From a virus, in the IMG/VR virus record IMGVR_UViG_3300020204_000007, positions 105,060-169,059 of that record: 64,000 bases of DNA. One strand, written 5' to 3'. The stretch's first letter is position 1; every line of letters begins with the position of its first letter. The notes below the pieces were generated by a model. It was not told the origin of the DNA, searched no databases, and saw nothing but the letters and a program-made list of their open reading frames with translations. Shown in pieces: positions 5,791-19,517 of the stretch. A program made the position numbers and the translations under genes.

Positions 5791-6013
5791 CGAAACATTG
5801 AATTTCCAGCAGGATATTATTGCAACCCAATTACATGAAACAGCAGAGCTTTTAATGCAATTATTTGATAACGACACAGAAAGTGCTAATTTGTGGCTTT
5901 TGTCGCCCAATCATTTGTTTTTTGATAAAACTCCAGTAGAAGTAATTTTTGAAGGAAACGGCAATACTGTCATTGATGTATTAAAAGAATGGTCGGAAAC
6001 AAAAAACGCATAA
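5777..6013 (+). CDS. MbcA/ParS-type antitoxin-domain-like protein, 78 aa
   Basis: ATG 5777 follows AAGGAGGAAGAAA; an earlier in-frame ATG at 5759 includes that ribosome site and is rejected. Residues about 38-75 (SANLWLLSPNHLF, then KTPVEVIFEGNG and VIDVLKEW) match the pattern of the toxin-binding domain of MbcA/ParS/Xre antitoxins (DUF2384, PF09722). No RES-type toxin is adjacent and no helix-turn-helix is visible, so it may be a solo antitoxin against a host system. Its TAA is the -35 TAAA of the next promoter. Confidence 0.55.
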   Translation: MELSNETLNFQQDIIATQLHETAELLMQLFDNDTESANLWLLSPNHLFFDKTPVEVIFEGNGNTVIDVLKEWSETKNA

Positions 6014-6062
6014 AGTTAGATTCCAAAGTTCCGATATGTAAATGTAGGTAATACAGCCTACA
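6011..6062 (+). promoter_or_regulatory. Sigma-28-type promoter with 5' hairpin
   Basis: TAAA (6011-6014) doubles as the stop codon of the previous gene; CCGATAT lies at 6031-6037. The leader forms TGTAGG/CCTACA (6043-6062) near the expected transcript start, followed by AAGGGG before ATG 6084. Confidence 0.8.
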
Positions 6063-6083
6063 AGAAATTAAGGGGAATACATC

Positions 6084-6269
6084 ATGGATAACGTAATTGA
6101 TTTGGCTGAGCGCAGACTGGCAAAACAAGCAAAGACACAACTAGAAGAGTTAAGCTTCAATAACCAACAACCATCATCTGACAGCAATGTTCAAAAAACC
6201 AAAGAACAAATTGAACAAGAACGACGCGAGCATAATGAACGCGTTCTCAAAAACTACAGAATTAAATGA
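6084..6269 (+). CDS. Small charged protein, 61 aa
   Basis: MDNVIDLAERRLAKQAKTQL followed by a Ser/Gln linker and a charged helix (EQIEQERREHNERVLKNYR). The opening N-V-I-(D/S) pattern resembles the small gene at 21360 (MNNVISFEDYKNKK). Probably helical. Function unknown. Confidence 0.6.
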   Translation: MDNVIDLAERRLAKQAKTQLEELSFNNQQPSSDSNVQKTKEQIEQERREHNERVLKNYRIK

Positions 6270-6278
6270 GGTACAACC

Positions 6279-6494
6279 ATGAAACTCCATTGTGTATTTG
6301 AATTAAATGACGAAACAAACAAATGGAAATTTGTGAAAGCGTTCAGTAAACGAGAAATGGTTGAACAATTTCTTGACGACAACATAGAATTTGGTATTTT
6401 TACAGTTGTTGAAACTTCAGTAAAACGCCCACCCCCACCAGAGGTGGATGAATTTGAGCAGGAGGAACTATATGCTGATCTATCAAACAACTGA
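6279..6494 (+). CDS. Hypothetical protein, 71 aa
   Basis: ATG 6279 behind GAGGTACAACC. Alternating strands and helix (KLHCVFELND, KWKFVKAFSKREMVEQFL, FGIFTVVETSV), then PPPPEVDEFEQEE. Overlaps the next start at 6472. Function unknown. Confidence 0.6.
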   Translation: MKLHCVFELNDETNKWKFVKAFSKREMVEQFLDDNIEFGIFTVVETSVKRPPPPEVDEFEQEELYADLSNN

Positions 6495-6750
6495 TCAAGC
6501 TGTTCTTCTTCAAGAACATCGTTGGGCATATATCAAAAAAGGCGACAAAAAAATCAAATGGCATAATAGATTTAAAGAAATGTCAAATGCTCTTGGCAAA
6601 TTAAATTATTATTTGATAGATAGTGTCGGCAATTTAATTACTGATTCAAAAGGTTTGAATGTTCCTAATAGAGAATGGACTGGCGAAATACACGAAGATG
6701 TCGAAAAATTAGTTTCTGAATTAAACATTGGAGACTATTATGTCGAATAA
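6472..6750 (+). CDS. Hypothetical protein, 92 aa
   Basis: ATG 6472 is chosen because AGGAGGAACTAT stands directly before it; an in-frame ATG at 6448 would include that site. Product begins MLIYQTTDQAVLLQEHRWAY. Nothing recognised. Overlaps the genes on both sides. Confidence 0.6.
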   Translation: MLIYQTTDQAVLLQEHRWAYIKKGDKKIKWHNRFKEMSNALGKLNYYLIDSVGNLITDSKGLNVPNREWTGEIHEDVEKLVSELNIGDYYVE

Positions 6751-6988
6751 CTTAAAAGATGTTTTGATTGATGATGAAGATTTAATTATTTTAGAAACTG
6801 CAATCAATTTTTTCAAAACATGTTTAGATGATTACGAATCGTATCAATTTTCAAAAAGAGATTTGATAGAAATTATGCAAGATGCCGAATGTCATTTATA
6901 TGACAACGGTATTCGTTTGACGGCAAAAAAAGTTGAAACTATTTGCAAAAAAATAAATCATGATACAACTTGGGTTGAAACTCTATGA
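6740..6988 (+). CDS. Hypothetical acidic helical protein, 82 aa
   Basis: ATG 6740 follows GGAG. The pattern DEDLIILETAINFFKTCLDD resembles the next gene product (PQDIELIYLAVIYLIDNVDD), so the pair probably arose by tandem duplication. Function unknown. Confidence 0.6.
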   Translation: MSNNLKDVLIDDEDLIILETAINFFKTCLDDYESYQFSKRDLIEIMQDAECHLYDNGIRLTAKKVETICKKINHDTTWVETL

Positions 6989-17746: not shown

Positions 17747-18316
17747 ATGAAAACTTTTTTAACGATTCTGTTGGCAAGCACTTTGATTGGATGTGGAACT
17801 GATCAAGATTTAGTATTGTCAACAGAAAAAATTAAACCGGAGGAAAAGAAAGAACAACAAGAAAAAAGCGACCCGTATTTAGAACAATACCTAAAACATT
17901 TCTATGGTATTTGTATTCAAACCACAGCCGCAAATAGATGCGGCGAAAATCTGAAAAAGCTAAAGTCAATTAATTTTGTTGATTCGTTTGATCAAAAAAC
18001 AGATCCAGATGGAGTGGTTGCAGGAGTTTGTTGGTGGTCAAGGTTTGAAAGAAAAATTGAAATAAAACGTAAAGTGGCAGAACCAGGTTCAATGCGCGAA
18101 CGAGCTTTAATTTTTCATGAACTTGGTCACTGCCTTTTAGATTTAGGACATTCTGATCCTAAAACAATGATGCTTATGAATCCGTATCTTTTTGATGAAA
18201 AAACTTATGCGTCAAGTTGGTCAAGATTACAGACAGAAATGTTTCAACTTGTATTGAGTTTTTTACTTGCAGATGAGTTTGATTTAAGCGATGATAAATC
18301 AATACCCATATTTTAA
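17747..18316 (+). CDS. Lipoprotein zinc metalloprotease-like protein, 189 aa
   Basis: A signal peptide ends in a lipobox (LIGC, Cys16), so the protein should be lipid-anchored. After a charged linker comes HELGHCLLDLGHS (H124, E125, H128, H135), a HExxH motif with the extra downstream His typical of HELGHC-type zincins. MMLMNP follows as a candidate Met-turn. Residues C56, C65 and C95 could form disulfides outside the membrane. Start follows GAGGACAAC. A phage-encoded surface protease could act on host envelope proteins or in superinfection exclusion. Confidence 0.7.
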   Translation: MKTFLTILLASTLIGCGTDQDLVLSTEKIKPEEKKEQQEKSDPYLEQYLKHFYGICIQTTAANRCGENLKKLKSINFVDSFDQKTDPDGVVAGVCWWSRFERKIEIKRKVAEPGSMRERALIFHELGHCLLDLGHSDPKTMMLMNPYLFDEKTYASSWSRLQTEMFQLVLSFLLADEFDLSDDKSIPIF

Positions 18317-18326
18317 GAGGCAAATA

Positions 18327-18671
18327 ATGTTTTCCGCTGAAAAACGTGCAGCACTCAAAACTGGTCTTCTTGTTCTTTTAGGTGGATTGACTACTTTTAT
18401 TGCAACAGAAATTAAAACTAAAAAAGAGCTGTCGCAAACAAACTGTCAATTAAGGCTTATGCTTATTGCAGATAAAGAAAAGCCGCTGTTTGTTTTTCCA
18501 ATCAGAGATACCGAAACAGAAGCAATTATTGCAATGATTAGTATGAGCGAAAAAGTTGTGATTAGGCTTACTAAAACAGATGGAAGTTTTTTATTGGAGG
18601 ATCAATGCACAAGACCTGATGGCAATAAAGCTTTGATGGAAATTAAAAGAGAACAAATTGTTTCAAAATAG
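18327..18671 (+). CDS. Membrane-anchored hypothetical protein, 114 aa
   Basis: ATG 18327 behind AAGAGGCAAATA; an earlier in-frame ATG overlaps the upstream gene. One N-terminal transmembrane helix (TGLLVLLGGLTTFIATEI) followed by a soluble domain with two Cys. Sits right after the lipoprotein protease, so the two may work together at the membrane. Not recognisable as a spanin. Confidence 0.6.
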   Translation: MFSAEKRAALKTGLLVLLGGLTTFIATEIKTKKELSQTNCQLRLMLIADKEKPLFVFPIRDTETEAIIAMISMSEKVVIRLTKTDGSFLLEDQCTRPDGNKALMEIKREQIVSK

Positions 18672-18730
18672 TACTCAGTAAATTTATTCAATCATAATGT
18701 TTTTTTAGTCAATAACAAAAGGAGATTCAT

Positions 18731-19096
18731 ATGTTGACCGTTTCCCACAATGATTCAGTTGCTACCGTGACCTACACAAATCGTAAGACTGGCGAAAGTG
18801 TTTCGTCAAAATTGCCTAGCTCAGCGTATAGCGTGTTGTCGGCTCTTCCTTCAGAAGGTGTTACTAACGCCCAGCTTCAGCAGCTACTTGTGAATACTGG
18901 TATTACAAAAGGACGTGCAACCTCGCTCATTGAACGTTTCTGCGGTACTTATAGTGCCTTCTGTGGAGTAAACCTGATCGATGCATCGTGGGGTGGACAA
19001 AACGGCAAAACAAGATACTTCAGATCCTCGGCTGAAGGGCTGGTGCTGGAAAGCTCGAAGCGGAGCAGCTCTCGTTCAAAGGAACTGGTCGGTTGA
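18731..19096 (+). CDS. Hypothetical protein, paralogue of 16973 product, 121 aa
   Basis: ATG 18731 behind AAAGGAGATTCAT. Shares the SAL...LQQLLxxxGxxxGRATSLIE block with the 16973 protein but lacks its acidic C-terminal extension, ending instead in a Ser/Arg/Lys-rich tail (ESSKRSSSRSKEL). Less AT-rich than its neighbours. A terminator overlaps its stop codon. Confidence 0.6.
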   Translation: MLTVSHNDSVATVTYTNRKTGESVSSKLPSSAYSVLSALPSEGVTNAQLQQLLVNTGITKGRATSLIERFCGTYSAFCGVNLIDASWGGQNGKTRYFRSSAEGLVLESSKRSSSRSKELVG

Positions 19097-19115
19097 TACC
19101 GGCCTTTTTCTTTTT
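19087..19115 (+). terminator. Rho-independent terminator abutting the next start codon
   Basis: GGTCGG (19087-19092), loop TTGATA, CCGGCC (19099-19104), then TTTTTCTTTTT (19105-19115). The next gene starts at 19116, immediately after the T-tract. Confidence 0.75.
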
Positions 19116-19493
19116 ATGAAACTACCAAACAGATTTAGGGCAGCAATCGCAGCCGCAAGCCAAAGCGAAGACTACCAACACAAGCTAGGCGCGGCCATCT
19201 TTGCTAAAAAAAGATTAATAAGCGTTGGTGCTAATAATGCTAAAACACATCCTCTATCGAGGTTCTATGGCCGTCCTGTGACTGTGCATGCAGAAATGCA
19301 GGCAATCATTAGAGCAAATAATTTAGTCGAATCGCTAGAAGGTATGGTTCTAGTTGTTGCAAGAATAAAACGTAATGGAGAGCTAGGAATGGCAAGGCCA
19401 TGTTCTGGTTGCCAAGAAATTATTAAACATCACAAAATAAAAGAGGTATGGTACACAACAGAAAACGGTTGGGCGAAGGAATACTTCGATTAA
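19116..19493 (+). CDS. Cytidine/deoxycytidylate deaminase-family protein, 125 aa
   Basis: Zinc-site motifs of the deaminase superfamily: VTVHAEMQAI (HAE, residues 58-60; His ligand and catalytic Glu) and ARPCSGCQEI (Cys96, Cys99). Length suits a compact CDA/dCMP-deaminase-like enzyme; substrate cannot be read from sequence. dCMP deamination would feed the dTTP pathway. Chosen start ATG 19116 has no Shine-Dalgarno and follows a terminator directly, so expression must rely on read-through or an upstream in-frame start. The TAA is the next -35. Confidence 0.7.
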   Translation: MKLPNRFRAAIAAASQSEDYQHKLGAAIFAKKRLISVGANNAKTHPLSRFYGRPVTVHAEMQAIIRANNLVESLEGMVLVVARIKRNGELGMARPCSGCQEIIKHHKIKEVWYTTENGWAKEYFD

Positions 19494-19517
19494 AGTTAGA
19501 TTGCAAAACTCCGATAT
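19491..19517 (+). promoter_or_regulatory. Sigma-28-type promoter
   Basis: TAAA (19491-19494) is the deaminase stop; CCGATAT 19511-19517; leader GTTATTAGGAGGAAATACT to ATG 19537. Confidence 0.8.

Follow-up and report, generated by a model that had tools for sequence, protein, structure and literature searches.

Putative sigma28-type promoter-leader cassettes that share stop codons with upstream genes and appear to have been copied between loci of an uncultivated myovirus-like phage

Results

The locus and its promoters

We analyzed a stretch of 64,000 nucleotides (hereafter the window) from the virus record IMGVR_UViG_3300020204_000007, i.e., positions 105,060-169,059 of this 169,059-base record. 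Positions are those of the window, except that the handle G000 marks record numbering. The record is that of a myovirus-like phage, and the window includes a 30-kb stretch of small genes where an earlier note had described promoter boxes whose TAA is also the stop codon of the preceding gene. These boxes belong to cassettes that appear to head short operons. Each cassette consists of a promoter and a leader with a Shine-Dalgarno (SD) site, and the longer leaders also have a 5' hairpin. Some of these cassettes are nearly identical to each other in spite of being flanked by unrelated genes. Among isolated phages, the terminase is closest to that of Myxococcus phage Mx1 (32% identity), and so is the portal protein (28%). 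The two phages are alike in genome size and in this distant structural homology, but they are separated by at least a family-level distance, and we found no match to isolated phages at the DNA level.

The earlier note took the box for a promoter -35 element. This is supported, but the predicted promoter is longer than was described there: the TAAAGTTAGA box is the -35 part of TAAAGTTAGA-N9-(T/G)CCGATA, whose general form is TAAAGTT-N13-CCGATA. With up to two mismatches allowed, a 30-nt form of this motif is matched 17 times, against 0.02 expected in shuffled sequences, which excludes a chance origin. Adding 10845 (variant GCCGATAG) and 32287 (14-nt gap) brings the total to 19 sites, all located between 1.6 and 32.4 kb of the window. 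A scan of the remaining 105 kb of the 169-kb record revealed no site with both hexamers intact. The gap is of 13 nt at nearly all sites; 32287 and its ortholog are the only ones with 14 nt. The information content is 0.2 bits at position -1 and 1.6 bits at the T of the box. The sites 2109, 1645(-), and 30368 face divergent genes.

Copies of the cassettes within the genome

Three pairs of cassettes, each flanked on either side by unrelated genes, match over their full length from box to start codon with at most two mismatches: 15444 and 16528 (over 69 nt), 13571 and 14006 (57-59 nt), and 3248 and 1645(-) (56 nt). For comparison, the spacers of orthologous cassettes in relatives of the phage are 60% alike, against 56% for random pairs within the window, whereas copies in the same genome reach 100% identity. 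Since the spacers of orthologs are no more alike than those of random pairs from the same genome, the identity of the locus is not retained. The presence of identical pairs between unrelated genes, together with the weak likeness of orthologs, thus indicates that copying or conversion has spread cassettes from locus to locus. The earlier note had proposed that the units are inserted or duplicated at stop codons. The three pairs support duplication, but insertion at stops is not needed, because the packing of the genes explains the overlap (see below).

Leaders and hairpins

The hairpin begins 6-10 nt past CCGATA, near the predicted start of the transcript. A stem of at least four pairs around an AATNNN loop was found in 7 of the 24 leaders, against 0.37 in shuffled sequences, and short leaders have none. 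In a count made in a fixed register, 53 of the 55 inner pairs of 11 distinct hairpins (five pairs each) are kept, with many types of pairs; re-dealt 3' arms average 31 and never reach 53. This count is more a description of the element than a test, as the hairpins were chosen for pairing and AATNNN was the loop searched for in class I. The hairpins of a second class of cassettes (class II, see below) were found without assuming this loop. At the orthologous loci of 30368 and 2109 the hairpin is retained with different letters. We dismissed the hairpins as terminators of the upstream operon because no T-run follows them; a role as stabiliser of the 5' end of the mRNA is likelier.

Stop codons at the junctions

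The positions of the cassettes and of the neighboring stops are given in Table 1, where the offset is the first base of the upstream stop relative to the T of the box. All the coordinates listed in the earlier note are correct, including the eight sites where the box TAA is the upstream stop, the three where the stop comes just before the box, and the two where the promoter lies within the final codons. Eight of the 15 stops are at one single offset, which has a probability of 8e-12 under a uniform model. A fairer null model is one where a gene entering the box meets its TAA in frame one third of the time, because the motif holds a TAA at +0 and, in many cases, a second one at +28. Under this model, 8 of 10 gives P = 0.003, and 8 of 11 (including 27894) gives P = 0.009. 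The coincidence of stops is real, and only modestly above what the motif forces. In agreement with this, a mechanical open reading frame (ORF) antisense to a real gene also terminates at the 30368 box, i.e., the TAA of the box stops any ORF in frame 0.

Stops are also fused with the next start or SD site at the junctions of the same region that lack a cassette. We found ATGA start overlaps at seven of these and TAATG at one, and the SD site overlaps the stop (TAAGGAGG, TAAGGGGGG, or TGAGG) at several more. Hence, stop sharing reflects general packing, and the regular junctions are mostly a by-product of tight packing and of a promoter that begins with a stop codon. The gene 13127-13573 is an end-to-end paralog (26%, E 3e-8) of 14059-14532, which has its own stop, and the TAA of the 13571 box lies within about one residue of the natural end of the paralog. 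This box is thus at a natural gene end and did not truncate the gene.

Table 1. Cassettes in the window and the stops of the genes upstream.
Feature	Coordinates	Strand	Upstream stop	Remarks
Class II cassette	192..264	-		with hairpin
Class II cassette, TTTAAGTTTACC...ACCGATA	825..902	-		with hairpin
Cassette	1598..1645	-		position kept in relative G002; extra gene 1415-1597 directly behind
Cassette, TAAAGTTTGA...	2109..2190	+		divergent from 1645(-); position kept in G002
Cassette	3248..3295	+	42 nt ahead of box	near-identical to 1645(-)
Cassette	5173..5218	+	23 nt ahead of box
Cassette	6011..6083	+	offset 0; box TAA is stop of 5759-6013	putative sigma28-type promoter; 7-bp hairpin TGTAGGTAATACAGCCTACA; SD site; ATG at 6084
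Cassette	7190..7263	+	offset -4 (one nt between stop and box); gene 6985-7188	7-bp hairpin; leader nearly copies that of 6011
Cassette	8839..8891	+	offset 0; box TAA is stop of ClpP-like gene 8092-8841	short leader
Cassette, GCCGATAG variant	10845..10892	+	offset 0; box TAA is stop of Mom-like gene 10203-10847
Cassette	12177..12228	+	offset -4 (one nt between); gene 11810-12175
Cassette	13571..13623	+	offset 0; box TAA is stop of 13127-13573	same letters as 14006
Cassette	14006..14058	+	offset -4 (TGA, one nt between)	downstream gene 14059-14532, paralog of 13127-13573
Cassette	15444..15503	+	offset 0; box TAA is stop of 14967-15446	same letters as 16528; 4-bp hairpin
Cassette	16118..16164	+	offset 0; box TAA is stop of metallopeptidase-like gene 15755-16120
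Cassette	16528..16587	+	offset 0; box TAA is stop of 16165-16530	same letters as 15444
Cassette	19491..19536	+	offset 0; box TAA is stop of dCMP deaminase-like gene 18981-19493
Cassette	21071..21135	+	offset +28 (-10 region); within end of 20775-21101	6-bp hairpin; then NifU-like gene
Cassette, TTAAGTTAGA...	27842..27894	-	offset +1; gene 27891-28352 stops on box TAA
Cassette	30368..30434	+		heads AAA ATPase gene; minus-strand genes diverge from it; relative G007 keeps position and hairpin, hairpin letters differ
Cassette	32287..32346	+	offset +29 (TAA of GATAAATAA, -10 region); within end of endolysin gene 31617-32318	14-nt spacing; kept in G007

Relatives and gene order

Two relatives allow a comparison of gene order. 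G007, with around 77% DNA identity in the region compared with the window, keeps the 30368 and 32287 cassettes and the order of the genes there; G002 keeps the 1645(-) and 2109 cassettes in place. In other words, four cassettes in total hold their position. The earlier note proposed to look for gains and losses of single cassettes with breakpoints at the box. G002 lacks the gene 1415-1597 directly behind its orthologous 1645(-) cassette, but order is conserved at 30368 and 32287 in G007. G002 also differs from the window in gene content from a point that bears no cassette, past the stop codon of the first gene downstream of 2109. This is, at one site, the kind of change ignoring the junctions that the note had named as speaking against its proposal. 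We saw no cassette-free version of a cassette site. No relatives spanning 5-22 kb of the window were found using the ClpP-like, GP88-like, and helicase proteins and DNA patterns. We dismissed L030, L031, and L033 as cassette-bearing relatives, their coding matches being due to chance, and L039-L043 as relatives, since they have no similarity to this phage genome. The search for the host through ribonucleotide reductase gave no result.

A second class of cassettes and neighboring genes

The first array is adjoined by a second class of cassettes (class II), consisting of six sites TTTAAGTTTACC...CCGATA, which likewise carry hairpins, within G000 102.2-106.0 kb. The window contains two of these, at 261(-) and 899(-), and the class is also seen at G000 102.2-104.5 kb. 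Four class II sites share 38 nt that are identical or nearly so, and at least two of the cassettes precede paralogous genes. Outside 1-35 kb of the window, TATAAT is found upstream of genes of the record 15 times (3.2 expected) with no obvious -35 element, and is possibly a late promoter class.

Several genes next to the cassettes have recognizable products. The gene 10203-10847, whose end is the promoter box, encodes a protein of the Mom family (DNA modification). Immediately 3' of the 21071 cassette, 21136-21363 encodes a phage NifU-like iron-sulfur scaffold domain. The AAA ATPase (30399-31541) and VWA-like (32347-34071) genes have a cassette each, with an SLT endolysin-like gene between them. 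A lone tRNA gene at 34376-34451 encodes a tRNA-Ile with the anticodon TAT, which is rare in bacteria. The phage also encodes a chaperonin (Cpn60/GroEL-like) at L011:10973-12580 (G000 51.0-52.6 kb).

Discussion

Which factor reads the promoters

The motif TAAAGTT-N13-CCGATA has the same letters and the same spacing (8+11+8) as the sigma28 consensus of E. coli, TAAAGTTT-n11-GCCGATAA (PMC2859248). Like the sigma28 (FliA/SigD) promoters of flagellar and chemotaxis genes (PMC2859248), the phage sites have TAAAGTT, a 13-nt gap, and CCGATA; unlike them, they head small unknown genes that are not flagellar, and have the extended invariant TAAAGTTAGA. Judging from this resemblance, the flagellar sigma factor of the host would be the simplest reader of the boxes. 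Sigma70-type sites are not above chance in three scanned stretches, and we dismissed a sigma70 reading.

Some observations weigh against this assignment and against a strictly bounded cassette. Searches with Pfam Sigma70_r2, NCBIfam FliA_WhiG, and sigma70-ECF revealed no FliA-like or sigma region-2 gene in the phage or its relatives, so we dismissed a phage-encoded sigma28; a search for FlgM in the phage was also negative. The invariant core TAAAGTTAGA exceeds the known sigma28 -35 element in length, and the stringent form of the site occurs in 0 of the 84,980 species genomes scanned. The left edge of the cassette is not absolute, since three groups of sites remain similar for 7-9 nt beyond the left end of the box, e.g., AAAACCCC directly before TAAAG at 8839, 1645(-), and in G007. 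The long core and the lack of a match in species genomes make a phage- or host-specific factor possible. An unrecognised initiation factor of the phage, with a similar motif, might then read the boxes instead of sigma28. One protein might be considered in this respect: a conserved protein of 186-188 aa encoded near the portal gene (G000 ~73.2 kb, L015:5739-6305), and also found in relatives, has a sigma-region-4-like helix-turn-helix and is a possible phage transcription factor. Yet, its match is below the Pfam cut-off, no region 2, which is needed to recognize the -10, was found, and both hexamers and their spacing match sigma28 exactly. We regard a phage factor as the less likely alternative.

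Origin of the cassettes

The explanation that we favor as a whole, and think probable, is that these are genuine regulatory cassettes, sigma28-type and copied, whose overlap with stops results from packing. The boxes would be the -35 elements of flagellar-type promoters over short operons. The unit would begin with the TAA of the -35 and run up to the following start codon, comprising the promoter and a 5' leader with the SD site and often a hairpin near the predicted 5' end of the mRNA. Recombination may have copied or gene-converted these units between loci. Upstream genes would end on the TAA because tight packing makes stops shared with the next signal and because the promoter begins with a stop codon. 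Any exchange between two cassettes would consequently yield a junction that is correctly closed and correctly started.

Alternatively, the stop-promoter-leader-start units, alone or with the downstream gene, could have entered at existing stop codons. The sharp left edge at the TAA, the identical copies, and the single gene gained or lost behind the 1645(-) cassette are in line with this. So is the arrangement around the gene 13624-14004, which lies between identical cassettes and between the paralogs 13127-13573 and 14059-14532, as if a gene plus cassette had entered an old tandem pair. But relatives keep the positions of the cassettes with conserved gene order, the break in the gene content of G002 is away from any cassette, and junctions that lack a cassette equally have their stops fused to start codons and SD sites. 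With no empty site seen either, insertion seems unlikely. It might also be that nothing moved, in which case strong selection common to the promoters and ribosome-binding sites would explain the likeness, and chance and compactness the shared stops. The -35/-10 core and the SD site are functional and would be conserved anyway, and the positions are conserved in relatives. But spacers and leaders are free to vary between orthologs (60% for the spacer, 30-50% for the 20 nt after the -10), whereas three pairs of the same genome are 95-100% identical in spacers and leaders over 56-69 nt. This disfavors the absence of mobility, which we find very improbable. Copying between loci, with stops shared by packing, therefore remains our preferred explanation.

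Known systems and implications

The closest known kind are the promoter early stem-loop (PeSL) elements of T4-type phages, described as "mobile regulatory cassettes" (Arbiol et al. 2010, Comeau et al. 2014, as cited in PMC4503421; also PMC3950731) and reported to mediate gene shuffling (PMC4503421). As these elements are presented in the citing articles, in both systems the small genes of a variable region are headed by many copies of a promoter and a stem-loop. Here too, repeated units of this type lie between small genes, with the hairpin right behind the promoter in long leaders. In contrast with the PeSL accounts given there, the promoter would be of the sigma28 type and not an early promoter of the host's main sigma factor, the stem-loop is in the 5' leader and absent from many cassettes, and the -35 also serves as the stop of the gene upstream. 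In the haloarchaeal virus HGTV-1, a TATA-like box and an inverted repeat precede most of the genes located on one genome side (PMC3950731). Like our phage, it repeats a promoter and inverted repeat ahead of many genes in a single arm of the genome, but the promoter is archaeal and the virus unrelated. What is new here is thus the sigma28-type promoter, in a phage where no sigma28 gene was detected, and the sharing of stops. We found no description of a sigma28-type phage promoter in the literature searched.

We suggest, as a tentative possibility, that in one group of uncultivated myoviruses an entire gene region depends on the flagellar sigma factor of the host, by means of self-contained stop-promoter-hairpin-start cassettes, which would allow the exchange of genes while leaving their neighbors intact. 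If the host's flagellar sigma factor does read the boxes, this region of the phage would be under the control of a regulator of motility, and infection would be tied to the motility state of the host cell. A cassette with its own stop and start would also provide a compact genome with a way to swap genes with little damage.

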